DNA of 64,000 bases from Sulfurimonas hydrogeniphila. Lineage in GTDB: Bacteria > Campylobacterota > Campylobacteria > Campylobacterales > Sulfurimonadaceae. Shown one piece after another: positions 1,535 through 51,543 of this stretch. The translations under genes and the position numbers were made by a program. Numbering within the stretch: position 1 is the stretch's first letter; each line of letters starts with the position of its first letter. The stretch lies in the NCBI RefSeq assembly GCF_009068765.1, contig NZ_CP035534.1, positions 930,001 to 994,000 of the forward strand, read 5' to 3'. Below the pieces are notes generated by a model. It was not told the origin of the DNA. It saw only the letters and a list, made by a program, of their open reading frames with translations, and did not search any database.

Positions 1535-4122
1535 GATTTTTCCTATTGATACTCTTCTTTTTATGTGGTTTCACAGAAGCCGATACAAACCGAGGACATG
1601 CTGCAGATGCCTTGGAAAAAGTCTCTTTGCAACTCCACTGGAAATATCAGTTTGAGTTTGCGGGATTTATTGCTGCCAAAGAAAAGGGATTTTACCGTGA
1701 TGCCGGTCTGGATGTGGAGATCAAAGAGTACAGGACGGGGATGGATGTCGTTGATGAGGTTCTCTCACAAAGAGCAAATTACGGTATTTACAACTCTTCT
1801 ATTTTACTGGAGTATCTGCAGGGAAAACCCCTGATTCTGTTGGCGTCATTTTTTAAGCGTTCCGCACTTGTATTGATTACACAGCCTTCTATCCATTCTC
1901 CCAAAGATCTGATCGGCAAAACAGTGATGTCTTCGCTAGTTGATGATTTCAGGCTTAATTTTAAACCTTATTTGGATGGATACGGCGTAAAGATAAGTGA
2001 TCTTAAAATGGTTCCGCAAACATACCGTGTGGATGAGTTTGCAAAAGGTGAAGTCGATGCTATGACTGCCTTTATTTCCGATCAGCCTCACAAACTTGAC
2101 AAACTCGGTGTAAAATATAATATTCTGGATCCCTCAAATGATAATCTGTTTGTCTTGCAGGAGGAACTCTTTACCTCCGCTGCTGAACTGAAAAACCATC
2201 CCTACCGGGTGCATGCTTTTAAAAAAGCTTCCATAAAAGGCTGGGAATATGCTCTCTCGCACAGAAAAGAGATTGCCAAAATCATTCATGAAAAATATGC
2301 GCCACAGCTGGACACAGAGACATTGGAATATGAAGCAGAAACAATCAACAAACTGATATTGCCTTTTATATATGACATAGGTTCCATAGACAGAAACTTC
2401 CTGCATAAACAGATGCAGCTTTTTAAAAATGATTTTCATGTGGGTGCGGGAAAAACACTGGATGATTTTATTGTAAAGCCCGGGATAAACGGACTTGCAT
2501 TGACAGATGAGGAACAAAGATATATAGAGCTGCATAAAAAAATACCTTTGTGTGTAAATTATGATTTTTTTCCGATTGACGGATTTAAAGACGGCAGACA
2601 CATTGGTATTATGGCTGATGTGTTTGCAATGATTGGCAATAAAACAGGTTTTGAGTTTATTCCTGTAGAATCACACTCAGAAGAAGAGTTGTTCCAAAAA
2701 CTGCAAGAAAAAAAGTGCAAACTACTTGCAGTCGTGGCAACGAATAACAGGTATTTTACTACTGTCAGACCGACAAAACCTTTCAGCAGTACCCATTTCA
2801 CATTGTTAAGCAGGCTTGACAAATCCTTTGTTGAAAACCCTCTGTTTTTAAAAGGAAAGTTGTTGCTGGTGCAAAAAAACTCATTTAAAAATTATTTAAA
2901 CTATCTGTATCCCTATTTAAATATTGAAGTGGAAGAGAATAAAAATACAATGGTGAAAAAAGTGCTCGACGGCAGAGCCTATGCTATTGCATCCATAGAT
3001 GAACAGGCGGACTATTTTATTGACAAATATGGATACGGAAAGCTGAAGATCAATGGATTCCTGGCAAAAGAGAGGCTGCTGCATGGCAGTATCGGTGTGC
3101 AAAAGGATGAACCGGTTCTGTACTCAATTATGCAAAAAGCTTTGAAGAGTCTTTCCAAAGAGAAGATAGAAGCAATAAAAAACAGCTGGAGACTCACGCG
3201 GTATCATGAAAGGGTTGATTACTTTCTTTTATGGATGGTTTTAGGGGTTGTTGCAATCATTTTTTTTATTATGATTTACTATCAAAGAAAATTGAAAAAC
3301 TTTAATGCGGCACTTGAACAAAGAGTGCAGCAAAAAACAAAAGAACTGCAGGAGACAAATGAAATTTTAAAACACAAAGTACAGGAAAAAGCAAAAGAAC
3401 TGATAAAAAAAGATGAAATTCTGACTGCACAGTCAAAACAGGCTGTAATGGGAGAAATGATCAGTATGATTGCCCATCAGTGGCGCCAGCCTCTAAATAC
3501 AATTACGCTTCAAATCTCAAATTTACAGTTAAAATATCTTATGGGACAACAAATTTCCAAAGAGGATATTATGCAGACTTTGGAAGATATCAGTGATTCT
3601 GTTGTGTATCTTTCAGATACGATTGAGGATTTCAAGACATATTTTCGCCCAAACAAAGCTCCTCAAGAGACTGACATGAGAGGATTGCTAAAAAAAGCAA
3701 TAAAATTTGTTGAGCCAAGACTCAAGTCAAATAAAATTGAACTCCAAACAGAATGTGATTCTGAGTTGCATGCAAATGTATATGCAAATGAACTGATACA
3801 GGTTTTACTGAATCTGTTAAACAATGCCATTGAAGCATACGAAAATAAAAAAACAGAAGATAAGATTATAAAGCTTACATGTAAACAGAGCGGTCCGAAG
3901 ATTCAGATTGATGTGACTGACAAAGCGGGAGGTATAAGAAAAGAACACTTGTCCAAATTGTTTGAACCCTATTTTTCTACCAAAGGCAAAAACGGAACAG
4001 GCCTTGGACTGTACATGTCAAAAATGATTATAGAAAAACAGTTTGGAGGGAGTATCAGTGTGGAAAGTTCAATGTTTGGTACAACTTTTACCATAGTCAT
4101 ACCAAAAGATGTACAAAAATAA
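1531..4122 (+). CDS. Hybrid periplasmic-binding-protein sensor histidine kinase (NMT1 + SBP3 + HisKA/HATPase)
   Basis: 863 residues. After a signal/anchor segment (1-18) comes an NMT1/THI5-like solute-binding domain (about 31-260, with LQLHWKYQFEFAGF and GFYRDAGLDVEI). A second, SBP_bac_3-like domain follows (about 330-550), then one membrane segment (about 563-583) and a coiled coil. The kinase has an H box at His649 (AHQWRQPLN), an N box (LLNLLNNAIEAY) and a glycine box (GTGLGLYMS). It therefore appears to read a small ligand in the periplasm and signal by phosphotransfer. NMT1-type domains bind thiamine precursors, taurine, nitrate-like ligands and others, so the ligand is open. No response regulator is adjacent. 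It overlaps the upstream nucleoside gene by 4 bp. Confidence 0.85.
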   Translation: MRFFLLILFFLCGFTEADTNRGHAADALEKVSLQLHWKYQFEFAGFIAAKEKGFYRDAGLDVEIKEYRTGMDVVDEVLSQRANYGIYNSSILLEYLQGKPLILLASFFKRSALVLITQPSIHSPKDLIGKTVMSSLVDDFRLNFKPYLDGYGVKISDLKMVPQTYRVDEFAKGEVDAMTAFISDQPHKLDKLGVKYNILDPSNDNLFVLQEELFTSAAELKNHPYRVHAFKKASIKGWEYALSHRKEIAKIIHEKYAPQLDTETLEYEAETINKLILPFIYDIGSIDRNFLHKQMQLFKNDFHVGAGKTLDDFIVKPGINGLALTDEEQRYIELHKKIPLCVNYDFFPIDGFKDGRHIGIMADVFAMIGNKTGFEFIPVESHSEEELFQKLQEKKCKLLAVVATNNRYFTTVRPTKPFSSTHFTLLSRLDKSFVENPLFLKGKLLLVQKNSFKNYLNYLYPYLNIEVEENKNTMVKKVLDGRAYAIASIDEQADYFIDKYGYGKLKINGFLAKERLLHGSIGVQKDEPVLYSIMQKALKSLSKEKIEAIKNSWRLTRYHERVDYFLLWMVLGVVAIIFFIMIYYQRKLKNFNAALEQRVQQKTKELQETNEILKHKVQEKAKELIKKDEILTAQSKQAVMGEMISMIAHQWRQPLNTITLQISNLQLKYLMGQQISKEDIMQTLEDISDSVVYLSDTIEDFKTYFRPNKAPQETDMRGLLKKAIKFVEPRLKSNKIELQTECDSELHANVYANELIQVLLNLLNNAIEAYENKKTEDKIIKLTCKQSGPKIQIDVTDKAGGIRKEHLSKLFEPYFSTKGKNGTGLGLYMSKMIIEKQFGGSISVESSMFGTTFTIVIPKDVQK

Positions 4123-4125
4123 TAT

Positions 4126-4347
4126 TTAGATTTGTTTTCTTTTTACCATTGCCAAAACCATCGGGAGGTTGAGCCCGTCGTTATGGTATCCTTCATCTCT
4201 GCATGATTCACATTTGTCACCCATAGGGCATATGTCGTTTTGCAGGAGTTCTTGGAGGGTTGTGAAATTATTCTCTTTTATACAATCAGCTATATCTTTT
4301 AGAGTCAGCGAATTGCATACACATATTTCAGTATCTAAATCTATCAT
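4126..4347 (-). CDS. Bfd-like [2Fe-2S]-binding small protein
   Basis: 73 residues from the ATG at 4347 (MIDLDTEICVCNSLT). A longer reading from 4425 is possible, but its extra N-terminus is not family-like. The cysteine pattern CVC near the start plus C-P-x-G-D-K-C-x-x-C matches the BFD-like [2Fe-2S] fold of bacterioferritin-associated ferredoxins and nitrite reductase middle domains. It is probably a small cytoplasmic electron carrier or iron-handling partner. It is convergent with the kinase gene, separated by 3 bp. The partner protein is not in this window. Confidence 0.7.
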   Translation of the reverse strand: MIDLDTEICVCNSLTLKDIADCIKENNFTTLQELLQNDICPMGDKCESCRDEGYHNDGLNLPMVLAMVKRKQI

Positions 4348-4477
4348 GTTTTTAAAAACCTTTTTCTTTGATATGGAATTATAATATATTTTTATTAACA
4401 CAAATTTTATATTTATGAGATACAATTACACAAAGAATACATACAAAAATGTAATATTTTCCTAAAAGGACAGATAT

Positions 4478-6214
4478 ATGAAACTGTTGAATAAAATATT
4501 TTTAATTTTGACTTTTAGCCTCGGCTTGCTTCATGCAAGCGCTTTTTTAATGCCGGACCAGGCATTTAAACCTTATGCCAAAGTCAATGACACAATGCAG
4601 ATAGAAACAGGTGTGAAAATTGCCAAAGATATTTATCTGTATGTTGATAAATTAAAAATTGAACTGATTGATGCAAAAGGTTTGTCCATACAAAGCATCA
4701 CAAAGCCTGCTGCATCTGAGCACCAGGGCGACAAAGTTTATATCAAGTCACCGAATTTTATTGTTACATTGAAAAAAGATGCTTCCCTGAAAGGGATGCA
4801 AACAATAAAATTAAAAATCTCCTACCAGGGATGTTCGGAGCAGGGCTTGTGTTATGAACCAAGTACAAAAGAGTTTACACTCACAGTGGATACAGACAAA
4901 CTCTCTTCAACAAACGATGCGTTAGGTACAAAAACAGAAAAAAAATCAGAGACTGACTCTATAGCAGATACAATAAAATCAAGCAGTTTTTTTGTTATTT
5001 TGGCAACTTTTTTCGGGTTTGGCGTGTTACTCTCTTTGACGCCTTGTGTATTTCCTATGATTCCTATAATTTCCGGTGTGATAATTTCTCAGGGTGAAGG
5101 ACTTACGACAAAAAAAGCTTTTGCCCTCTCTTTGGTTTATGTACTTGCAATGGCTGTTGCCTATACAATTGCAGGTGTTTTAGCAGGAGTCTTTGGAGCT
5201 AATCTGCAAGCAGCATTGCAAAATCCCTGGGTTGTCTACTCTTTTGCAGGTATCTTTGTTGCTCTTGCTGCAAGTATGTTTGGTTTTTATGAATTGAAAC
5301 TTCCTGATGCACTTGTAACCAAAGTAAGTACAAATACAAATCGTAACGGTTTTATAGGTGTAGCCATTATGGGATTTCTCTCAGCACTTATTGTCGGTCC
5401 CTGTGTTGCTGCTCCTTTGGCAGGTGCTTTGGTATACATAGGACAAACGGGTGATGCACTCTTAGGCGGGGCTGCACTTTTTAGTATGAGTATAGGAATG
5501 GGTGTTTTACTTGTTTTAGTCGGTGTAAGTGCCGGTAAGTTTATGCCTAAACCTGGTCCGTGGATGGTTATGGTCAATGAAATTTTTGGCGCATTAATGT
5601 TGGGTGTTGCTATTTGGATGCTTGAAAAAGTACTGCCGTCATCTGTTACTACTTTGATGTATGCAATTGTCGGAATAGGATTCAGTGTTCATTTTGGAGC
5701 CTTTGACAAAGACGGACACAGTTTCAAGCGGAGTCTGTCTTTGCTCTTGTTTCTCTACTCTTTGGCACTTTTCATGAGTGTTTTAGCAGGCGCACCAAGT
5801 ATAAAACAGCCGCTTGGATTTTTAAAATCACAGGCAGCAGGTACAGTGCTTCCTGCAAATGAGAAAAAGTTGACATTTACAAAGGTAACCTCATTGGATG
5901 AGCTCAATACTTTGTTGGAAAAAAACAGAGGTAAAAAAATAATGCTTGATTTTGCAGCTGACTGGTGTACGGCATGTAAAGAACTTGAAGAGGTGACTTT
6001 TGCAGATCCGAGAGTAAAAGAAAAATTAAGTGAATATGTTCTGATTCGTGCTGACGTTACGGCAAACGGAGCAAAAGAAAAGGCACTCTCTAAGGCATAT
6101 GGTGTTTTTGGTCCTCCTGTGATGATCTTTTTTGACAAAGATTTAAATGTAGAGAAATCCAAAACAATTGTAGGATTTATAGAACCGGAAGCGTTCTTAA
6201 AACATCTTCAGTAA
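4478..6214 (+). CDS. dsbD: Thiol:disulfide interchange protein DsbD
   Basis: 578 residues, the usual DsbD length. It has a signal peptide (1-20), an N-terminal periplasmic domain with a Cys pair (CSEQGLCYE), an eight-helix membrane domain carrying two half-repeat cysteines (LTPCVFPMIP and VGPCVAAPLAG), and a C-terminal thioredoxin domain with DWCTACK (Cys497/Cys500). It moves electrons from cytoplasmic thioredoxin to periplasmic thiols, which supports cytochrome c maturation and thiol-dependent proteins such as SoxY. The sensory and sox genes follow on the same strand with a 30 bp gap, so co-transcription is possible. Confidence 0.95.
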   Translation: MKLLNKIFLILTFSLGLLHASAFLMPDQAFKPYAKVNDTMQIETGVKIAKDIYLYVDKLKIELIDAKGLSIQSITKPAASEHQGDKVYIKSPNFIVTLKKDASLKGMQTIKLKISYQGCSEQGLCYEPSTKEFTLTVDTDKLSSTNDALGTKTEKKSETDSIADTIKSSSFFVILATFFGFGVLLSLTPCVFPMIPIISGVIISQGEGLTTKKAFALSLVYVLAMAVAYTIAGVLAGVFGANLQAALQNPWVVYSFAGIFVALAASMFGFYELKLPDALVTKVSTNTNRNGFIGVAIMGFLSALIVGPCVAAPLAGALVYIGQTGDALLGGAALFSMSIGMGVLLVLVGVSAGKFMPKPGPWMVMVNEIFGALMLGVAIWMLEKVLPSSVTTLMYAIVGIGFSVHFGAFDKDGHSFKRSLSLLLFLYSLALFMSVLAGAPSIKQPLGFLKSQAAGTVLPANEKKLTFTKVTSLDELNTLLEKNRGKKIMLDFAADWCTACKELEEVTFADPRVKEKLSEYVLIRADVTANGAKEKALSKAYGVFGPPVMIFFDKDLNVEKSKTIVGFIEPEAFLKHLQ

Positions 6215-6244
6215 TTTGGACTAAAGAATAGAGGCGGAGTTTAT

Positions 6245-7339
6245 TTGTTAAAAAAAATAGTAATCTTTTTTGGGGGTATTATACTGATCACATTGCTTCT
6301 GAGCTTATACTACAAAAATGAAGTCAAAGAAGAAAAAATTTACCATATTATGGATCAAATGCGGCTGACACTTGACTCACAGCTCAAATCTCATGAAATG
6401 GATGATCTGAAAATTGCGCTGCTCCTTTCAAAAAATGAAGCACTTGTCAATGCCCTGGAAAATGATGATGAAGATCTGGGCTATAAAATTTTAGAAGATA
6501 TTACACAGAATATTGAAAAAAACACCGGTATGCATATACGTGCCCAGGTCATTACAAAAGAGCTGAATATCTTTGCAAGAAGCTGGGATGACATTTATGC
6601 CGGTATGCCGATAGGTGACTACAGACTGGATCTGCAATATTTCTATACGCATACAAACCCCCGTACCTCTGTAGAAATCGGACGCCGTCTGGGTATAAAG
6701 GCAACAGTGCCTGTATATAAAAACGGTAACTTTTTGGGCTTTGTGGAAGTCATCTCTTTTTTTAAATCTATAACAGACTTTTTTAGCTCCATGGGTGTTG
6801 ATTTGTATGTGTTACTCGATGTAAAACACACAGATACTGCAGTTTTGATGATGCAAAACCTGACAATTGACAATTATGTTCTGGCAAACAGAAACTATAA
6901 TTATGCACATATTCAAACCCTCAACCATATTGATTTTAAAGAACTGAAGCTTAACGGTGTTGTTTATGCAGATGAAAAATATATTTTTTATGAAAATATG
7001 AAAGACGGAAGTGGTACAATAATAGGAGCTTTTGTCTTTGTACTGCCAAAAAGATATTTGGATTATTTTAGAAATCCGGAAGATGATATCTCTTTTTTAA
7101 TTAATGTTACAAGAAGCGGACTGTATGATGTTGTCAAAGAAGAAAAATATCAAAACAACATATATAAAGATTACAGTGCCAAATCGATGGTCTATCTGCA
7201 GGATGTAATAGACAAAGAAGAGAGACAGCTGTTTTTTGACGAAGCCTATGAAAAGTTTGACCAATACTCCAAAGACGAGTTGATTCAAATGATGCTTAAT
7301 AGAAAAATTGTAAAAAAAATAGACGGGAAAATTAAATGA
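6245..7339 (+). CDS. Membrane-anchored Cache-type sensor protein without output domain
   Basis: 364 residues from a TTG start at 6245, chosen because an AGGCGG ribosome-binding site lies just upstream and the protein opens with a lysine-rich membrane anchor (about 4-22). A single extracytoplasmic sensor region follows (about 40-280) with R-S-W at 112-114 and E-I-G-R at 144-147. The same R-x-W / E-x-G-R layout is present in the chemoreceptor at 40642-42753, suggesting related double-Cache domains. There is no kinase, HAMP or other output domain. The stop overlaps the response regulator start (ATGA), so it is probably the input component of the regulator/kinase pair. The ligand is unknown; sulfur compounds are an inference from the sox context. 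Confidence 0.7.
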   Translation: MLKKIVIFFGGIILITLLLSLYYKNEVKEEKIYHIMDQMRLTLDSQLKSHEMDDLKIALLLSKNEALVNALENDDEDLGYKILEDITQNIEKNTGMHIRAQVITKELNIFARSWDDIYAGMPIGDYRLDLQYFYTHTNPRTSVEIGRRLGIKATVPVYKNGNFLGFVEVISFFKSITDFFSSMGVDLYVLLDVKHTDTAVLMMQNLTIDNYVLANRNYNYAHIQTLNHIDFKELKLNGVVYADEKYIFYENMKDGSGTIIGAFVFVLPKRYLDYFRNPEDDISFLINVTRSGLYDVVKEEKYQNNIYKDYSAKSMVYLQDVIDKEERQLFFDEAYEKFDQYSKDELIQMMLNRKIVKKIDGKIK

Positions 7340-43044: not shown

Positions 43045-43366
43045 TTAAACCCTGAACTCTTTAGCAGTTGTTAAACGAGTGCTTTCATTGATTTCATTGA
43101 AAAAGATAGCATATGCTTCTTCTAGGAGCTCTTTTTCTATCTCATGGATAGTTTGAGTGTCTTTGATGTTAAATTTGTTTCTAGATACATCACTGTTCTC
43201 GTAGTAAAACTCACTACTTACTAACTGATACTTTGATGCCATACTTTTTTCTGAGGAGTTGAGCTTTTTTTATAACAGAAGTATTTTGTTGTAGTATATC
43301 CTTCAATAGCTTGAAAGATAGATACAATTTTTGAGATAATATTTTTATTGTTCGGATTCTTGCTCT
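43045..43366 (-). pseudogene. Decayed second copy of the ficA-ficT module (5' part only)
   Basis: On the minus strand, 43242-43045 reads MASKYQLVSSEFYYENSDVS and continues to residue 65, nearly identical to the first 55 or so residues of the intact Fic protein at 44340-44951, then ends without the catalytic HPF motif. The antitoxin region upstream (to 43366) has lost its ATG (TGCTCT in place of TACTCA on the plus strand), carries one extra base that shifts the frame, and has Phe in place of the inhibitory-motif Ser. It is a non-functional duplicate. Confidence 0.85.
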
Positions 43367-43497: not shown

Positions 43498-43767
43498 CTA
43501 CAATTCTGCTTTATACTTTTTAATACCTAAAACTGTAATGATTGATTTTTCTTCATCAACTTTATACCCTTTATAAATCAAGTCTCGGATATTATCATCA
43601 TCAAAGTAAATTGATTTTCTACATTTGTAAGGCATATGGTGTATATCTTCAATTAATTTTTTTATCCCTTTTTTAAATTGATTTGCTCTATTTTTGTTAT
43701 CTTGTGCAATATAGTCCCAAATGTTATTAAAAGAATTTATAAACCTTGGCTCATAGATAATTTTCAT
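43498..43767 (-). CDS. RelE/ParE-family toxin
   Basis: 89 residues of the compact RelE/ParE fold: MKIIYEPRFINSFNNIWDYIA, a helical pair, then the strands RKSIYFDDDNIRDLIYKGYKVDEEKSIITVLGI. Members either cut mRNA on the ribosome or poison gyrase; the sequence alone does not decide. The antitoxin gene ends 2 bp upstream, a standard toxin-antitoxin layout. Confidence 0.8.
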   Translation of the reverse strand: MKIIYEPRFINSFNNIWDYIAQDNKNRANQFKKGIKKLIEDIHHMPYKCRKSIYFDDDNIRDLIYKGYKVDEEKSIITVLGIKKYKAEL

Positions 43768-43769
43768 AC

Positions 43770-44021
43770 TTAATTGCTAGTATGATGTTCTATTGTATTC
43801 CATACTTCTGTATGTGAAAGAGGTTTTGTCTTTCCACTTTCAATATTTTCTAAAGCATTTTGGAAATAAGCTTTATCCTCTTGAAATTGCTTAGAGTTTA
43901 AGTAATCATCTTTTCTATCTACTAGATTCAGAAGGTATTCATTAATTTTTGATTGCATATCAATGCCAGCACTCTTGAGTTTTTGATAAACATCATCTTG
44001 AATATTTAAAGATATTTGCAT
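43770..44021 (-). CDS. Antitoxin of the RelE/ParE-type pair
   Basis: 83 residues. The N-terminal MQISLNIQDDVYQKLKSAG is a ribbon-helix-helix-like DNA-binding start, and the C-terminal part ending TEVWNTIEHHTSN is the toxin-binding tail often seen in ParD/RelB-like antitoxins. An AGGAGG site precedes the ATG on the minus strand, and a TATACT -10-like box is near 44047. It probably represses its own operon. Confidence 0.75.
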   Translation of the reverse strand: MQISLNIQDDVYQKLKSAGIDMQSKINEYLLNLVDRKDDYLNSKQFQEDKAYFQNALENIESGKTKPLSHTEVWNTIEHHTSN

Positions 44022-44339: not shown

Positions 44340-44951
44340 CTACTTCGATAGTCCATTGAAAATGATTTTTTCTAAAGCTGAGCTATCTGCAAACTGTACA
44401 CACTCTATAGCAGCATCAATGTACTCACTTGGAGTAATGTGAGAATAGTCTATAAACTGATACCCATTATATGCAGCTATCATATCAATAAACATCCTTG
44501 TAATTCTCCCATTGAGCTCATAAAAAGGGTGTAGGGCATTAAGTTCACATTTGTAATAAGCCAGCTTTTTTACAAACTCTGATTTTGGACGTGATGTATA
44601 ATCTTTGAGAAAATTATCATTAGCTAAATCTGTAAATATTTTTTGAGATGAACTTTTGACAAATTCACCTTGACAAAATCTTGACTCACCTTTTGCCATG
44701 TTGAAATCCCTGTATAGTCCAGCCCAATCATATAGTGATTCAAACGTTCTTTTGTGTAGTGAAATGAAATATATCTCATCAAAATGAGTGTTCTCGTTAA
44801 GTTCATTGAAAAAGACAGTATATGCTTCTTCCAGGAGCTCTCTTTCTATCTCATGGACAGTTTCTGTGTCTTTGATATTAAATTTGTTTCTAGGAACATC
44901 ACTGTTATCGTAGTAAAACTCACTACTTACTAACTGATACTTTGATGCCAT
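44340..44951 (-). CDS. Fic-domain protein (probable AMPylating toxin)
   Basis: 203 residues. The Fic core is intact, with HPFYELNGR at 141-149 (canonical HPFxEGNGR with Leu for the first Gly), preceded by the flap region GESRFCQGEF (88-97). Fic enzymes transfer AMP or related groups to target proteins; class I members such as VbhT and FicT modify gyrase and topoisomerase IV. The start at 44951 overlaps a 50-codon antitoxin frame, the usual ficA-ficT arrangement. A truncated second copy lies at 43045-43366. Confidence 0.88.
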   Translation of the reverse strand: MASKYQLVSSEFYYDNSDVPRNKFNIKDTETVHEIERELLEEAYTVFFNELNENTHFDEIYFISLHKRTFESLYDWAGLYRDFNMAKGESRFCQGEFVKSSSQKIFTDLANDNFLKDYTSRPKSEFVKKLAYYKCELNALHPFYELNGRITRMFIDMIAAYNGYQFIDYSHITPSEYIDAAIECVQFADSSALEKIIFNGLSK

Positions 44952-45607: not shown

Positions 45608-46635
45608 ATGAAACCGATAGAAAGAGTTTTACAGGCTATAGAAGATATTAAAAAAGGTAAAATGGTTATTATGGTTGATGATGAAGACAGAGAAAACGAG
45701 GGCGATCTGGTCTATGCAGCCGCCTTTTCTACACCGGCACATGTAAACTTTATGGCAATGCACGCACGGGGGCTTATATGTGTTGCTCTTTCTAAGTCTA
45801 TTGCCGACAGACTTGATTTGAATCCTATGGTGAGTTCAAATACTTCTTCGTATGAAACTGCCTTTACAGTCTCTGTTGATGCTAAAGATGCACTGACAGG
45901 AATTTCGGCTAAAGAGCGGGACGATACTATAAAAATATTAGCCAACCCCATTTCAAAGCCGGATGAACTGGTAAAACCGGGACATATTTTTCCTCTCATT
46001 GCAAAAGAGGGCGGTACACTTGTAAGAACAGGCCATACGGAAGGCTCTGTTGATCTGTGCCGTTTGGCAGGGCTGAGTGAAGCGGGGTAATTTGTGAAAT
46101 AATTAAAGATAACGGTGAAATGGCCCGTCGTGATGATTTGGATATTTTTGCCAAAAAACATGATCTGCATACAGTATTTATTTCTGATATTGTTGAGTAT
46201 AGACTTTCGAATGAAAGACTTGTAAAAGAGACAGAGGTGCAGGAGATAGAGTTTTTCGGTGTCAAAGTGCAGCAACATACATTTGAAGACCATGATGGTA
46301 TAAAACATACAGCGATACTTTTTTACAATGCAGGAGAAGTTGCAAATGTACGGGTTCATAATGTAATTCCTGACTGTGAACTACTTTTGCAACAAGAGAA
46401 ATACAATAATTTGATCAATTCTATAGAATATCTGAAGCAAAACAGCGGTTTGTTGGTTTTTATAAACAAAACACATCATCAGGACAATGCGGCCATAAAA
46501 GAGTTTGGAATAGGGGCGCAGATTATTAAATCATTTGGTATTTCAAAAATGAATCTTATTACTTCTATGAAAAAAACCGACTTTGTAGGACTGAGCGGAT
46601 TTGGACTTGAAGTAAATGAGATTATTGATATTTAA
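45608..46635 (+). pseudogene. ribBA: ribBA (DHBP synthase + degenerate GTP cyclohydrolase II-like domain), frameshifted
   Basis: The first frame (45608-46090) encodes the RibB domain: [26 protein letters not shown] and [11 protein letters not shown]. It stops at GLSEAG, just before the expected VICEI catalytic segment. That segment and the rest (46091-46635) are in the -1 frame. One missing G in the GGGG run at 46084-46087 explains it. The C-terminal part lacks the zinc cysteines of active GTP cyclohydrolase II, as in several Campylobacterota RibBA proteins. Either the gene is broken or there is a base-calling error; no riboflavin riboswitch is evident upstream. Promoter: TATAAT at 45566-45571. 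Confidence 0.8.
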
Positions 46636-46638
46636 CTG

Positions 46639-47571
46639 ATGTACAAATTTTTTCTTCTTGTCTCTGTGTTTGTTGCATGTAATGCAGATTCACAGATGAT
46701 ACAGCGTACAAAAGTATTGATGGGTACTTTTGTGTCAATATCTGTCGACAAGGAAGATAAAAAATTTCTTAAACCCTCTTTTGAGATTATCAAAAGGGTC
46801 GATAACTCGCTCTCTACCTATAAAAAGAATTCTCCAATATCTCAACTTAATCAAAACAGACATGCATCTTTAGACAAGTATTCTTATGAAGCTTTGACGC
46901 TTTCTTTAAAATACTATAAGCAAACACATGGATACTTTAATATTGCGATAGGAACAATTACGAAAGATTTATACAGATTTGGTGCCAAAGAGCGTATTGC
47001 TTTGAAAAATGAACTTGAAAAAAGTTCTGTTTCTGTCAATGAGCTTAGATTTGATAAAGATGAGGCTTTTTTAGGCAATGCAGTAAAAATAGATCTTGGC
47101 GGTATGGGAAAGGGATTTGCAGCAGACAAAGTCAGTGAATTTTTACTGCAAAACAAGGTGAAAAAGGCAGTTGTTGCCCTGAGCGGAGACATTCGATGCA
47201 TAGGCAGCTGTAAAATTGCCGTTAATAATCCTTTGGATGTGACACATCCTTTGGTTACATTTATAATGCATAACAGCGGTGTGAGCACAAGCGGAAATTA
47301 TAATCGTTATATAAAAAGCACAAAGCATAATCATCTCATTAATCCAAAAACAAAAGAATCAGAACAAAAATTTATCTCTATAACGCTTGTCTCAAAACTT
47401 CCATCAGCAACACTCGATGCATATGCAACGGCTGCGAGTGTTATGCCGATAAAAGAAACATATGCATTTTTAGATTCTAAGAAGATAGGCTACATTATTT
47501 TGCAAGCAGATAAAAAACTTGTTATAAGCAAAAATATAGCTGAATATACTGATATGTTTATTAAAAATTAA
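46639..47571 (+). CDS. apbE: FAD:protein FMN transferase (ApbE)
   Basis: 310 residues. The hydrophobic start ends in a lipobox-like FVAC (Cys14), so it is probably a periplasmic lipoprotein. ApbE landmarks: GTFVSISV, VDNSLSTYKKNSPISQLN, KIDLGGMGKGFAADKV, GVSTSGNYNRY, HLINPKT and DAYATAASVM. It attaches FMN covalently to Ser/Thr in proteins bearing a flavinylation motif, such as the FMN-binding protein encoded at 49595-50116. It lies 3 bp after ribBA, so flavin supply and attachment are linked. It converges with the cytochrome gene, overlapping by 11 bp. Confidence 0.92.
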   Translation: MYKFFLLVSVFVACNADSQMIQRTKVLMGTFVSISVDKEDKKFLKPSFEIIKRVDNSLSTYKKNSPISQLNQNRHASLDKYSYEALTLSLKYYKQTHGYFNIAIGTITKDLYRFGAKERIALKNELEKSSVSVNELRFDKDEAFLGNAVKIDLGGMGKGFAADKVSEFLLQNKVKKAVVALSGDIRCIGSCKIAVNNPLDVTHPLVTFIMHNSGVSTSGNYNRYIKSTKHNHLINPKTKESEQKFISITLVSKLPSATLDAYATAASVMPIKETYAFLDSKKIGYIILQADKKLVISKNIAEYTDMFIKN

Positions 47572-48664
47572 ATGATTCAGTTTTTAGAATTCTTATTTTG
47601 GTAAGCTCTTTGTTATGTTGCAGCTTTAACTCTTTTGCTGCTTTTTTTGAGATAAGCCGAAAACCAAGTGTTAGTACAATTTTATCACCTTTTTGCAGCT
47701 TTGTATTGTAGACAATATTTTTTTTCGCATAAATAAGGGTATCTTTTAAAATATTCGTCGCTTCAAAAGGCATACTTTCTTTGTTGCCTTTTCCGAAAAT
47801 ACGTGTAAATATATAAGGTTCCTGAACTATTTTGTCTGCTCCGCGAATGATTGTAACATTGAGGACTCCTTCTCTGTAGGCCTGTCCGAACAGAGCATGA
47901 TTGGCAAGATTTTCAATGCTTACCTGAAAGCCTTTTTCATGTTTTTGTACATGAAAATTGATATATTTTCCGAGACTTTTGCTGAGTTTGTGCAGACCTG
48001 CTATGCCATGATAGGCATGAGTCTTACTGTCGCTGAGTGTTGTTTTGCTGCCCATGGTTTGCGGCATATGACAGGATATGCAGGTGTTTTTGTCTTTTTT
48101 GTCAATATACGCATCAAGCATGATGATATCAAAATCATGCGCATTGTTTACATGTGAATGGCATCCCATGCAGACATTGCCGTTATAGTAGTTTTCATTG
48201 TTGTATTCAATTTGGTGATAAGGAGAATTTTTAGAGCGTTTGATAAGACCAAAAAAAGAAGTTGTTGTTTCATATGTAACTTTGGATCTGTTTTTTTTAT
48301 CTTCTTGGGCGCTAAAGAAGTCTTTTTTCTTTCCTGTTAAAATATTTTTGTTTGCTTCATCATATTTTTGAATATTTTTGATTGTATGGCAGTAGATACA
48401 TGATATCGGTTCTTCTTTTTCCTGTTGCAGGTTTTTTGCGCTTGGTGCATGACAGCTGTTGCATTTGCCTCTTTCTTTTTCTTTGTGTTCTTTCTCAAAG
48501 ACCGCTCTATATATTGCATCATTAGCAAGCGATGACTTTCTGTGAATTGAATCATAATATTCTTTATAGATTAAAGGATGGCATTTTTGACACACTTTGT
48601 TGTCGTTTGCAAAGGAAGCATTACATGTAATAAGAAGTAATAAAAATAATAAAAGTGTTTTCAT
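47561..48664 (-). CDS. Periplasmic pentaheme c-type cytochrome
   Basis: 367 residues from the ATG at 48664 (MKTLLLFLLLLITCNASFA signal peptide); a start six codons earlier is less signal-like. Five heme motifs: CQKCH, CNSCH, CIYCH, CMGCH and CISCH, all in the first 55% of the protein. The last 150 residues have no heme and look like a beta-rich domain. It resembles the cytochrome c554-type multiheme group, but I cannot assign a specific member. It is the last gene of a minus-strand operon that also encodes two membrane proteins, an FMN-binding protein and a porin. Confidence 0.85.
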   Translation of the reverse strand: MKTLLLFLLLLITCNASFANDNKVCQKCHPLIYKEYYDSIHRKSSLANDAIYRAVFEKEHKEKERGKCNSCHAPSAKNLQQEKEEPISCIYCHTIKNIQKYDEANKNILTGKKKDFFSAQEDKKNRSKVTYETTTSFFGLIKRSKNSPYHQIEYNNENYYNGNVCMGCHSHVNNAHDFDIIMLDAYIDKKDKNTCISCHMPQTMGSKTTLSDSKTHAYHGIAGLHKLSKSLGKYINFHVQKHEKGFQVSIENLANHALFGQAYREGVLNVTIIRGADKIVQEPYIFTRIFGKGNKESMPFEATNILKDTLIYAKKNIVYNTKLQKGDKIVLTLGFRLISKKAAKELKLQHNKELTKIRILKTESFNF

Positions 48665-48682
48665 AGCAAATATTGTAGCCAA

Positions 48683-49171
48683 TTAATCATATAAAATACT
48701 TTTAAAGAGTATAAACAAAGTATACAATATGACAATTTCAAAGAAAAAAAATGAAAATATTTTTAAAAATGCAAGCGATTCAAAACCGTTTATAAGAGCA
48801 AATGGTGTAAAAATTTCTAAAAATGAGAGTATAAACAGAGCAGATGTAAGCAGTCGCAGTTCTTTTGTTCTTTTTTTGTGTGTAAAGAGCAAAAAGTGCA
48901 CGGTAACCATTACGAAAAGTCCAAAGGCAAAAATATGCGGCAAGATGATTTTCAGTATGCCGCCTGGTGTTTTAGGTGCTATGAAAAGTGCTTCATTTCC
49001 AAGATAGTATGTTAATACACCTTCAGTCGTGAAGCCGATCTTGGATGCAAAAAGAATACTGCTGCTCAGAAGAAGGAGTATTGAAAAGAGAATAAAGTAA
49101 AATATAGCAAGGTTATAGGCTTTTTGCAAAATTAAGGCTCCATAATGAATAAATAACCATGTAAAATGCAC
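48683..49171 (-). CDS. Four-helix membrane protein of the flavin/cytochrome module
   Basis: 162 residues from a GTG start; no ATG in frame is available near the expected start. There are four hydrophobic helices and several membrane-region histidines (IHYGALIL, TVHFLLFTH), which could ligate heme b or bind a quinone. I do not recognise the family. It sits 18 bp upstream of the pentaheme cytochrome gene and is likely the inner-membrane partner that feeds or drains it. Confidence 0.65.
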   Translation of the reverse strand: MHFTWLFIHYGALILQKAYNLAIFYFILFSILLLLSSSILFASKIGFTTEGVLTYYLGNEALFIAPKTPGGILKIILPHIFAFGLFVMVTVHFLLFTHKKRTKELRLLTSALFILSFLEIFTPFALINGFESLAFLKIFSFFFFEIVILYTLFILFKSILYD

Positions 49172-49192
49172 ACAAATGCCATAAATAATATG

Positions 49193-49594
49193 TTACAAGA
49201 TAAATATACACAAAAAAGGATGTATATAATATGAAAGCGTAAGGGCAATGAGCATAATCAGCGCACTTGTCATCACACTGTTAAGGCAAAAAAGTTTCAG
49301 AGTGTCATTTGCGGTTAAGCGGATAAATATAGCACTGAGTGTGAGAAGTATCATCATCATGAAAAATATTTTGGTATGAATATATTCCAAAAACGAGGCT
49401 TCGGAGATGGGTTCGAGGAAATTTTCTTCATTTCCAAAAAGTGTGAATTTTACCTGTTCATAAAAAAGACCAAAGTTGCTGGAATCTACAAAAACTTCAG
49501 CAGCAAAATACAAAAGCATGAAAACGAGCAAGCCGTTGAGCATAGGTTTGATCGATGAATCTTTCTTTAAGTCTTTTATAAGAGTAAAACGCAA
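49193..49594 (-). CDS. Second four-helix membrane protein of the flavin/cytochrome module
   Basis: 133 residues from a TTG start with AAGGA 8 bp upstream. The start directly abuts the stop of the FMN-binding gene. Four hydrophobic segments; histidines in EYIHTKIFFMMM and YYIHPFL lie at membrane positions suited to heme or quinone contact. The family is not recognised; its layout recalls the small DUF4405-like membrane partners of flavinylated proteins. Confidence 0.65.
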   Translation of the reverse strand: MRFTLIKDLKKDSSIKPMLNGLLVFMLLYFAAEVFVDSSNFGLFYEQVKFTLFGNEENFLEPISEASFLEYIHTKIFFMMMILLTLSAIFIRLTANDTLKLFCLNSVMTSALIMLIALTLSYYIHPFLCIFIL

Positions 49595-50116
49595 TTATTT
49601 ATCCTTATAGAGCATATTGTATATGGCAAATGCTATACGCGAACCATCAGTAAGACTCTTTGCGCTCATTGTTGCACCTGAGATATTTGTTATTTCACGA
49701 TTGAGTTTTAACAACTTGTCAGTTTTTTTGTTTTTAAACTGTTGCGTCCATCTTTTTGGCGGAAGATATTCCAGTGTTTCATTAAAGGCAATGACTTCTA
49801 TCCCCTGCAAAACAGAGTCTTTGAAAAAATAGAGTGTTACTGCATTTTTGGAACGAACTTTTCTGTTAACAAGTATGCCGTATCCTAATATTTTTCCGTT
49901 TTTTTCGGCTATATATACTCTGTAGATTTTTGTAGTCAGTTTTACACCTGCATTTTTTTGTACTGTTTTAAATTTTTCATGGGTCAGAATAATATTCTTC
50001 TTGGTAATTGTTGCATTAAGATCAAAATTTTCTTTCATTGCATCAATAGGAGATACAAGGAGTTGGGCTGATAGCTGTTGTGTCAATAGCAGTATAAATA
50101 GTGAAATATATTTCAT
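49595..50116 (-). CDS. Exported FMN-binding domain protein (flavinylation target)
   Basis: 173 residues with a signal peptide (MKYISLFILLLTQQLSA). The C-terminal FMN-binding domain carries NISGATMSAKSLTDG, the SGAT-type motif whose threonine receives FMN from ApbE. It would serve as a periplasmic one-electron carrier between the membrane proteins and the cytochrome. apbE is 2 kb downstream, convergent. Confidence 0.85.
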   Translation of the reverse strand: MKYISLFILLLTQQLSAQLLVSPIDAMKENFDLNATITKKNIILTHEKFKTVQKNAGVKLTTKIYRVYIAEKNGKILGYGILVNRKVRSKNAVTLYFFKDSVLQGIEVIAFNETLEYLPPKRWTQQFKNKKTDKLLKLNREITNISGATMSAKSLTDGSRIAFAIYNMLYKDK

Positions 50117-50224
50117 AGCTTAATTCTTTAAATATTTTATTTTTAAAATTCTAGCAAAATAATTGGGGTTTTGCAGTAAAATTGCTGCAAAACCTTATAA
50201 AGGAGAAAATATGTCCGAATGTTT

Positions 50225-51430
50225 TTAAAAAACAAAACCTAAAGATATGCCGGTAATATTCCCTGTCGCCGCATTGTCTGAGACAACATATTCAGCTTTA
50301 AGGACTACCTGCTCATGTGGGAAAAAGTTAATCCCAAGTGTCACATCTGTTATGGCATCACCTGCAGTTCCGCCGTTGCTTACTTCTGATTGCGGATTAT
50401 ATCGTTCATATTGCACAAAAAGAGGTGTTTTTTTGTCTGTACCTATTAAAGAGGCAATATTGTAACTTGCATTTAAGAAACCGCCGTAATTTGCTGTAAC
50501 CTGTTGACTTGCATTTGTATCAAGTCTTTTGTTTTGTGCATAGGTACCGTAAATTCTTGCTGCGCCTATTTTGTAGTCAAGATGAACATCTACCATAAGC
50601 AAATCTTTTGAAAAGTATGATGAAGCACCGATAAGCAAACCGCTTTTTCCGGTGTAGTCAACTCTTATCTGTCCTGCTGCATCCGGATTTTTCACTAAAC
50701 GCCCGCTGCCGCGGCCGTTTCTTACCCACTTGTCCCCGGTATCCGTTATCTGCAGTGCTGTGACTATAGAGGCTTTGTACTCTATGCCATCTGCAATTTC
50801 ACCGTAAACCATTGCCCCTGAAGTATTCCATGTAGTCGGAATAATATACTTCGCTGTATTTGGACGCTGTATCGTTGTAAAGAGTGTCGGTTCGTGCTGT
50901 TCATTCATTAAACCCATCGGGAGCAAGAAGTTACCAAGACGTGCATTGAAGTTTTTGTTCCCGATGAAGTCAAGGTACATAAATTCAACAGCTACAGTAT
51001 CACCGGTCGCACCTGTACTGGTAGCCTTTACTCCGCCGCCTTCATACTCAATTTCCGAGTTTAAAATGATATTGTCAGCAAACTTATATCCAAAATATGT
51101 TATAAATCTTTTTATCTGTGTTTCAGAACCAGCCTTTTGTGTACTTGAATAATACATTTCACCGTATCCGCCGATACTTAACGGTGATTTTGAGTAATAA
51201 ACTTTAGAAGCAGCACTACCTAGACCGGTATAACGCTTTTTCTCATCAACTTTGGTATAATTAAAGCCGGTTTTTAAATCACTTGTTTCATCAACAAGAA
51301 TCTGTGTCATTTCTTTGAGATCTTTCACTTCCTGTTGAAGCTTGAGAATATCTGTTTTGTCATCCCCGAAAGAGGCACTGCTTACCAGTAACATGCTTGC
51401 TAATACTAGTGATACGTTTGTTTTTTTCAT
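50225..51430 (-). CDS. Outer-membrane porin of the OprO/OprP-like type
   Basis: 401 residues from the ATG at 51430 (MKKTNVSLVLASMLLVSSAS signal peptide); an upstream in-frame start at 51469 would disrupt the signal. A short N-terminal coiled coil (ILKLQQEVKDLKEMTQ) precedes a beta-barrel with YGEMYYSS, the LGNFLLPMGLMNEQHEPT region typical of phosphate-selective-like porins, and a C-terminal Phe. It heads the minus-strand flavin/cytochrome operon and probably admits the substrate. Its -10 box is TATAAT at 51493-51488. Confidence 0.82.
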   Translation of the reverse strand: MKKTNVSLVLASMLLVSSASFGDDKTDILKLQQEVKDLKEMTQILVDETSDLKTGFNYTKVDEKKRYTGLGSAASKVYYSKSPLSIGGYGEMYYSSTQKAGSETQIKRFITYFGYKFADNIILNSEIEYEGGGVKATSTGATGDTVAVEFMYLDFIGNKNFNARLGNFLLPMGLMNEQHEPTLFTTIQRPNTAKYIIPTTWNTSGAMVYGEIADGIEYKASIVTALQITDTGDKWVRNGRGSGRLVKNPDAAGQIRVDYTGKSGLLIGASSYFSKDLLMVDVHLDYKIGAARIYGTYAQNKRLDTNASQQVTANYGGFLNASYNIASLIGTDKKTPLFVQYERYNPQSEVSNGGTAGDAITDVTLGINFFPHEQVVLKAEYVVSDNAATGNITGISLGFVF

Positions 51431-51517
51431 TTTTCTATCCTTTGTCTTGATTATGATATTTACTATCAAAATCTTTTTGATGCAGAAATTATATACTTTT
51501 TTTTTAAAAATATTCTT

Positions 51518-51543
51518 AATTTTAATAATTATTATCGATATTA
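51518..51543. promoter_or_regulatory. Fur-box-like AT palindrome between divergent promoters
   Basis: ATTTTAATAATTATTATCGA and the following TATTAA contain the palindrome AATAATTATT and overlapping ATAAT/ATTAT half-sites, similar to Campylobacterota Fur boxes. It lies upstream of the porin -35 position and overlaps the -35 region of the plus-strand promoter (TATAAT at 51559-51564). AT-rich background makes chance similarity possible. Confidence 0.35.

Follow-up and report, generated by a model that had tools for sequence, protein, structure and literature searches.

A 64-kb window of the Sulfurimonas hydrogeniphila genome encodes an outer-membrane porin, a periplasmic flavin mononucleotide (FMN)-binding protein (here the FMN protein), two small membrane proteins (TM1 and TM2) and, facing them, the FMN transferase ApbE. 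These five proteins are the conserved core of a module that recurs across genera with a predicted Fur-type operator in the porin promoter. We consider it somewhat more likely than not that the module serves iron assimilation as a flavin-based ferric reductase repressed by Fur, with entry through the porin, TM1 and TM2 as the electron conduit and delivery to FeoB. The window is the whole stretch of DNA analyzed, and coordinates are positions within it; its genome (G000) is a single contig of 2.34 Mb, and other L and G labels denote the loci and genomes sampled.

A five-gene core conserved across genera

We surveyed 151 genomes of the family and 347 genomes across the phylum. Searches with TM1, TM2 and the FMN protein covered this phylum, plus one scan of genome contigs. 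The profiles of the three proteins matched the same 33 of the 347 phylum genomes. TM2 matched one further genome (G286), spuriously; this match (L122) contains three stops, lies outside any such module and was left out. The 33 carriers represent 7 of 63 genera and five families, all from one order, so the conserved synteny that a preliminary description of this DNA had proposed to search for extends beyond close strains. The contig scan found one relative of the FMN protein, 90% identical, in a Sulfurimonas metagenome-assembled genome. A plasmid collection searched with the FMN protein gave zero matches, and a plasmid-borne module was ruled out on this ground.

Within the family sample, 89 of the 151 genomes encode TM2 and 93 the FMN protein. 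All 89 genomes with TM2 also have the FMN gene, 87 with both genes on one contig and two with them on different contigs. Every one of the 87 one-contig pairs lies on the same strand with a gap of 418-570 bp. The FMN protein is encoded without TM2 in four genomes (G021, G033, G050, and G118). ApbE is present in 90 of the 93 genomes carrying the FMN protein compared to 16 of the 58 non-carriers, and in 77 of the 93 it is encoded within 5 kb of the FMN gene.

We read 34 loci: the window, 21 loci of the family (L061-L081), 10 from other families (L112-L121), and two more from the family (L123 and L124). The FMN protein is encoded in all 34, TM1 and TM2 in 33 each, the porin in 31, and ApbE in 28, the last being missing from L072, L074, L075, L080, L081, and L117. 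L074 is a second copy of the FMN gene without TM1 and TM2. In L116 the porin and FMN genes diverge, the porin gene being on the opposite strand. The pairwise distances show correlations of 0.77-0.89 among the five proteins, as would be expected if these are inherited together, although common ancestry by itself gives high values too.

A putative Fur-type operator in the porin promoter

In the window alone, two palindrome sites at 12/14 stand before the porin gene. The 64 kb contain four such sites where 0.89 are expected, a number reached by 2 of 100 shuffles. Over the 34 loci, we counted as upstream the stretch from 250 bp ahead of the aligned porin start to 20 bp past it, or the same stretch around the FMN start where the porin is absent. 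At a threshold of at least 13/14, the 15-mer TGATAATnATTATCA was found at 22 of 8,508 upstream positions and 0 of 454,711 positions elsewhere, counts that overstate the significance as related loci are not independent. At 12/14 there were 50 sites upstream and 8 elsewhere. In 28 of the 34 loci the best TGATAATnATTATCA site lies upstream, with one tie (L069), compared to two of 34 strictly best upstream and 10 ties for a reversed-pattern control.

Our first scan, with TAATAATnATTATTA, was weaker, and TGATAATnATTATCA was picked after viewing those sites; published 19-mers and the reversed control were therefore added. The Vibrio 19-mer contains TGATAATnATTATCA, and this consensus is bound by Fur in gel shifts (PMC7536154). 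With at least 16/19 positions matching, it occurs 15 times upstream and never elsewhere and is the best of the locus in 23 cases with six ties. The E. coli 19-mer gave 5 sites upstream versus 1 elsewhere at 16/19 and 39 versus 6 at 15/19, and was best of the locus in 23 with three ties. A PerR-type operator, TTATAATnATTATAA, was rejected as it fits worse, being strictly best upstream in 8 of 34 loci with 17 ties, against the 28 and one tie above. By eye, the box stays with the porin while the genes on its far side change between genera.

The preliminary description had taken a Fur-like palindrome in the window as a sign of iron control. This sign is weak within the window itself, while the box conserved across genera and found also at feoAB supports the idea. 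Through this conservation the predicted Fur-type operator in the porin promoter is convincing, and Fur presumably binds it. In this phylum the Fur box has been only partly defined, and the published 19-mers tested are those of Vibrio and E. coli. As cited in PMC3167755, a motif was seen in 11 of the 16 Campylobacter jejuni promoters that iron and Fur repress, and another phylum has a feoAB1 operator that lacks the classic hexamers (PMC4506495).

Across seven whole genomes, TGATAATnATTATCA with at most one mismatch gave 24 sites compared to 10 for the backward control. Eight of these are in the porin promoter (six genomes), three are before or within feoAB operons (G000, G053, and G099), and 13 are elsewhere, 10 of them inside open reading frames (ORFs) and three between genes by ORF calls. 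Of 39 stretches that extend some 3 kb upstream from feoB, 31 have a site of at least 12/14 (55 sites in 143,537 bases) and 20 have one of at least 13/14, with a promoter position checked for part of the sites. Fur-family proteins are encoded in all 10 genomes tested. In one genome (G051:C2:527000-534000, L176, positions 1536-6405) a paralogous FMN_bind protein, a second ApbE and a DUF6662 protein are encoded head-to-head with feoAB; two 12/14 boxes lie between the divergent genes or where the feoA frame starts. This pair is a second arrangement tying this flavoprotein family to ferrous uptake.

Two close species also share a conserved Fur-like site between genes that by eye are EAL-like and bioD-like (G000:C1:563144-563158 and G137:C1:1768260-1768274).

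Proteins of the module

Over 60 distinct relatives of the FMN protein, the G of the SGAT motif is kept in 59, the A in 60, and the last T in 60. The protein has a Sec-type leader that looks cleavable, as judged by eye, and the solved structure nearest to its family profile is RnfG (9eri, expect value (E) 3e-10). All 29 FMN_bind matches in the 33 carriers are members of the FMN protein's own family. Six carriers have no Pfam FMN_bind match at all, indicating a low sensitivity of the Pfam model for this family. Second copies of the FMN protein are encoded in G051, G087, and G077. Judged by sequence, the module fits general flavinylation-based extracytosolic electron transfer, as it pairs ApbE with a substrate, an exported FMN_bind protein with a [S/T]GA[S/T]-type motif, and the threonine of SGAT would carry FMN covalently. 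The preliminary description had proposed a flavinylated module for electron transfer in the envelope that includes a porin of its own, and the computational results support this.

A profile comparison shows TM1 to be a homologue of TM2 (probability 97.2%, E 4e-11, 143 columns), so the operon contains a tandem duplication. Searches of Pfam with 20 TM2 and 19 TM1 members gave chance-level matches only, and assignment of the pair to a known Pfam or NCBIfam family was rejected for the same reason. A search of solved structures with the TM2 profile also returned only chance matches. In distinct relatives, a His (59/59), an Arg (59/59) and a second His (57/57) are invariant in TM1, as are two His in TM2 (59/59 and 59/59), making four invariant histidines over the pair. 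Charge and hydropathy suggest that three of them lie towards the periplasm and the second of TM2 towards the cytoplasm. Of the two four-helix membrane proteins described at the outset, TM2 is modeled by AlphaFold2 as a four-helix bundle (predicted local distance difference test score, pLDDT, 90.6). The TM1 ORF of the window does not match that description, as it is only 133 residues long versus 155-163 in 20 relatives and is without the last helix; this helix, with a conserved Trp-His, was found in another frame.

No Pfam model matched the window porin's own sequence. Of 18 members of its family, 14 matched Porin_O_P at E up to 1 (best 4.2e-9), the window member not being among them, and 10 also matched KdgM. 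The AlphaFold2 model of the porin (pLDDT 77.6) resembles general porins, with OmpU as the best Foldseek match (E 1.9e-14); a solved-structure search with the porin profile gave chance matches only.

By eye, Sulfurimonas feoAB operons often begin with an outer-membrane porin of their own, with Fur-like boxes in front (L141, L144, L151, L167, L175, L177, L183, and L189). The one tested, in G000 (L151), is OprD-type by Pfam. This porin leading feoAB would be a second iron-linked porin.

A candidate ferric reductase and its alternatives

If the module is a ferric reductase for iron assimilation, scarcity of iron would derepress the operon and the porin would admit small ferric complexes to the periplasm. 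ApbE would attach FMN to the SGAT-motif threonine of the FMN protein, which is soluble. TM1 and TM2 together may be a heme-b (or quinone-binding) conduit carrying electrons from the membrane quinol pool to this FMN. Reduced FMN would convert Fe(III) to Fe(II) in the periplasm, and FeoB, whose operon has a box of this type as well, would import the Fe(II). In this scheme we infer the FMN attachment, the heme, the quinol donor, the ferric substrate, the porin cargo and the binding of Fur. More tentatively, and with slightly less than even confidence, we suggest that the module could be a new class of Gram-negative reductive iron uptake, non-TonB, in which a dedicated porin, a flavinylated ferric reductase, a split two-gene cytochrome of a new family and FeoB come under one Fur-type switch.

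A number of observations weigh against the ferric reductase. No ferrous transporter gene is found inside the operon, and while FeoB is encoded in 33 of 33 carriers, it is near-universal and its presence is thus only consistent with the scheme. Many Sulfurimonas are without the module, which is therefore dispensable. The porin is missing from three of the 34 loci (L066, L067, and L073), and these three, the second copy L074, and L079 are the exceptions in which the best TGATAATnATTATCA site is not upstream. Beyond the non-independence of the loci, the window boxes reach only 12/14, weak by themselves, and with two mismatches each they keep the porin promoter of G000 out of the sites with at most one. 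ApbE is not encoded within 5 kb of the FMN gene in 16 of the 93 carriers, several of them on broken contigs. A fold search with the TM2 model returned only generic helical bundles (best Z 9.5; Foldseek best E 3.8), and it is from the conserved histidines that heme binding by TM1 and TM2 is predicted.

Flanking genes identified by Pfam in certain loci also count against it. A multicopper oxidase gene adjoins apbE in L120 (8887-10539) and L121 (9172-10824), both from one genus, an E1-E2 ATPase gene is next to apbE in L118, and in L116 the end of a TonB-dependent receptor gene is about 4.6 kb from apbE. A cation-efflux gene in the flank of L124 points elsewhere as well. The flank genes could do copper or siderophore work in those lineages, and the multicopper oxidase may connect the module to copper or to a ferroxidase. 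The copper and TonB genes make the ferric reductase and the new uptake class slightly less likely, and slightly favor the use of another scarce substrate, by which iron would be obtained from ferric siderophores or heme, or copper reduced, with the porin acting as a specific receptor. LbtU-type barrels serve as the receptor for a siderophore. Fur control and the strong conservation of the porin fit such a role, as do the receptor end in L116, the oxidase in L120 and L121, and the ATPase in L118, and PepSY clusters with TonB receptors have been read in this way (PMC8238504). We nonetheless regard another substrate as unlikely, as the porin looks like general porins and not receptors, the copper and TonB genes recur in few loci, and the conserved operator is Fur-type, not copper-type. 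The same operator and the feoAB-linked paralogue favor iron over envelope redox repair or a supply of reductant under iron limitation, such as keeping periplasmic proteins reduced. No iron-binding protein is encoded in the module and the FMN protein could reduce many partners, as would suit a repair function, but genes of the thioredoxin-like or Msr kind do not, by eye, recur next to the core in the loci viewed, and we hold this function to be very improbable.

The preliminary description had also included the pentaheme cytochrome of the window in the module. It adjoins the FMN gene in only eight of the 93 carriers, all Sulfurimonas and at 934-950 bp, and was rejected as a core part on this count. 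Relatives of the cytochrome are found in 112 of the 151 family genomes, many by weak matches, and its nearest solved relative is cytochrome c552 (5ze8, E 1.6e-10); a literature search on pentaheme c552 found nothing. At the operon end in those eight genomes it is perhaps an extra electron carrier. In L073 (8127-12839, G087), genes with 4, 3, 11, 7, and 8 CXXCH motifs follow the porin-less FMN-TM1-TM2 set, possibly a respiratory version. The module as a whole could likewise be respiratory, passing quinol electrons to an outside or periplasmic acceptor (metal oxide or organic) admitted by the porin, with the pentaheme cytochrome as the outer carrier. Flavinylated proteins support respiration elsewhere (PMC8238504), and both the pentaheme gene in the window operon and the multiheme run in L073 speak for such a pathway. 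On the other hand, the pentaheme cytochrome is not adjacent in 85 of the 93 carriers, no terminal reductase or surface cytochrome recurs by eye in the loci viewed, and the module and feoAB have a Fur-type operator in common. Respiratory or extracellular electron transfer, which would fall under the electron-transfer half of the preliminary description, has little positive evidence, the Fur box pointing to iron assimilation, and we think it unlikely.

Layout of the locus

The six genes were located as first described, with five minus-strand genes facing apbE on the plus strand, by ORFs and Pfam. The FMN, TM1 and TM2 genes are tightly packed, and the apbE and cytochrome genes overlap at their ends. 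The start codon of TM2 is TTG by alignment, with a GTG at 49171 as the alternative. Terminator-like sites number four in the region versus 2.7 expected, a count that is not significant.

Table 1. Features of the module and its surroundings in the window.
Feature	Position	Strand	Remarks
ribBA, riboflavin synthesis	45608..46635	+	Followed by apbE after 3 bp; ORF split near 46090
apbE, FAD:protein FMN transferase	46639..47571	+	Pfam ApbE E 5e-55; sole ApbE match in G000
Pentaheme c-type cytochrome, 367 aa, five CXXCH	47561..48664	-	Optional add-on; structure relative 5ze8
TM2, membrane protein of four helices; His65 and His78 of helix 2 are invariant	48683..49129	-	No Pfam family
TM1, TM2 homologue, ORF truncated here	49193..49594	-	Last helix runs on in other frame to about 49113
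Periplasmic FMN-binding protein, 173 aa, SGAT flavinylation motif	49595..50116	-	Pfam FMN_bind E 5.2e-5
10-bp hairpin and AT-rich tail, between porin and FMN gene	50167..50194	-	Possible partial terminator
Outer-membrane porin, N-terminal coiled coil	50225..51430	-	Porin_O_P matches in family, AlphaFold2 model, Foldseek
Fur-like box 1, 12/14	51454..51468	.	23 bp before porin ATG
Fur-like box 2, 12/14	51523..51537	.	92 bp before porin ATG; similar position in close relatives

The riboflavin gene ribBA directly precedes apbE in 10 of the 14 Sulfurimonas loci (L061-L074). It is intact in relatives (342-355 residues), and the window copy is apparently frameshifted near 46090. This damage and that at the end of TM1 (near 49200) are likely sequencing indels, the simpler explanation of both broken frames because ribBA is a housekeeping gene. 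In one family locus (L075, 5543-6754, G025) a di-heme cytochrome c peroxidase/MauG gene lies between the porin and FMN genes (Pfam E 2e-38).

Beyond ribBA, the window encodes a ParE-type toxin (43498-44021, minus strand, Pfam E 7e-10) with a short gene behind it in the antitoxin position. A Fic/DOC family gene is found at 44340-44951 (minus strand), and a short ORF at 43045-43242 (minus strand) repeats its N-terminus, as if by partial duplication.

Comparison with known systems

Sulfurimonas and related bacteria occur widely in sulfidic waters of the sea and at vents. Among the papers listed by our searches, none names Sulfurimonas iron uptake in its title or the start of its abstract, and the operon is a concrete, testable candidate for it. 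TM1 and TM2, an unnamed pair with four invariant histidines, extend the short list of membrane cytochromes that may be linked to flavin, and the module suggests that an iron reductase can have a porin as its fixed partner. Subscription papers and supplements aside, no title or abstract start among the matches listed describes the operon, though it may be listed unnamed in a supplement. The word "porin" is absent from the main texts of PMC8238504 and PMC10979944, and "Campylobacter" appears there only in two reference titles of PMC8238504.

The survey of flavinylated systems describes NapH-, MsrQ-, PepSY-, DsbD-, and NQR/RNF-like membrane parts (PMC8238504), to which a later paper adds DUF4405 and FezC (PMC10979944). 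None of the PepSY, MsrQ, NapH, DsbD, or NQR/RNF-like families was matched in Pfam by the 20 TM2 and 19 TM1 members. The P19/FTR1 uptake system is similar in having a flavinylated FMN_bind protein in an iron-uptake cluster (PMC8238504); it was rejected here, as the P19 family is found in 0 of the 151 family genomes. Subunits G/C of Rnf/Nqr also have an FMN_bind domain, but the protein of the module differs in being soluble with a cleavable-looking leader. The FsrB and FoxB systems are not known to have a covalent flavoprotein or dedicated porin. What these share with the proposed ferric reductase is periplasmic iron reduction before FeoAB uptake, for which FsrB of Bradyrhizobium is the precedent (PMC10760861).

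Like the module, DUF4405/FezC systems have small membrane proteins near apbE and a link to iron (Huang 2024, PMC10979944 / PMC11334425). DUF4405 has four central histidines, and FezC is thought to act as a dimer (PMC10979944 / PMC11334425). The four histidines of each TM1/TM2 pair recall those of DUF4405, split over two homologous genes, a likeness drawn between sequences and not folds. DUF4405 itself was not matched in Pfam at E up to 10 by any of the 20 TM2 or 19 TM1 members. The PepSY- and MsrQ-like systems have ApbE, a flavinylated periplasmic protein, a membrane conduit with conserved histidines and a tie to Fur and iron assimilation in common with the module, and both are interpreted as iron reductases when flavinylated (Meheust 2021, PMC8238504). 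The module differs from them in having two four-helix-sized proteins where they have one multi-helix protein. It also has a porin in place of the TonB receptor of the PepSY systems, and an FMN_bind substrate instead of the DUF2271 found in most PepSY clusters (PMC8238504).

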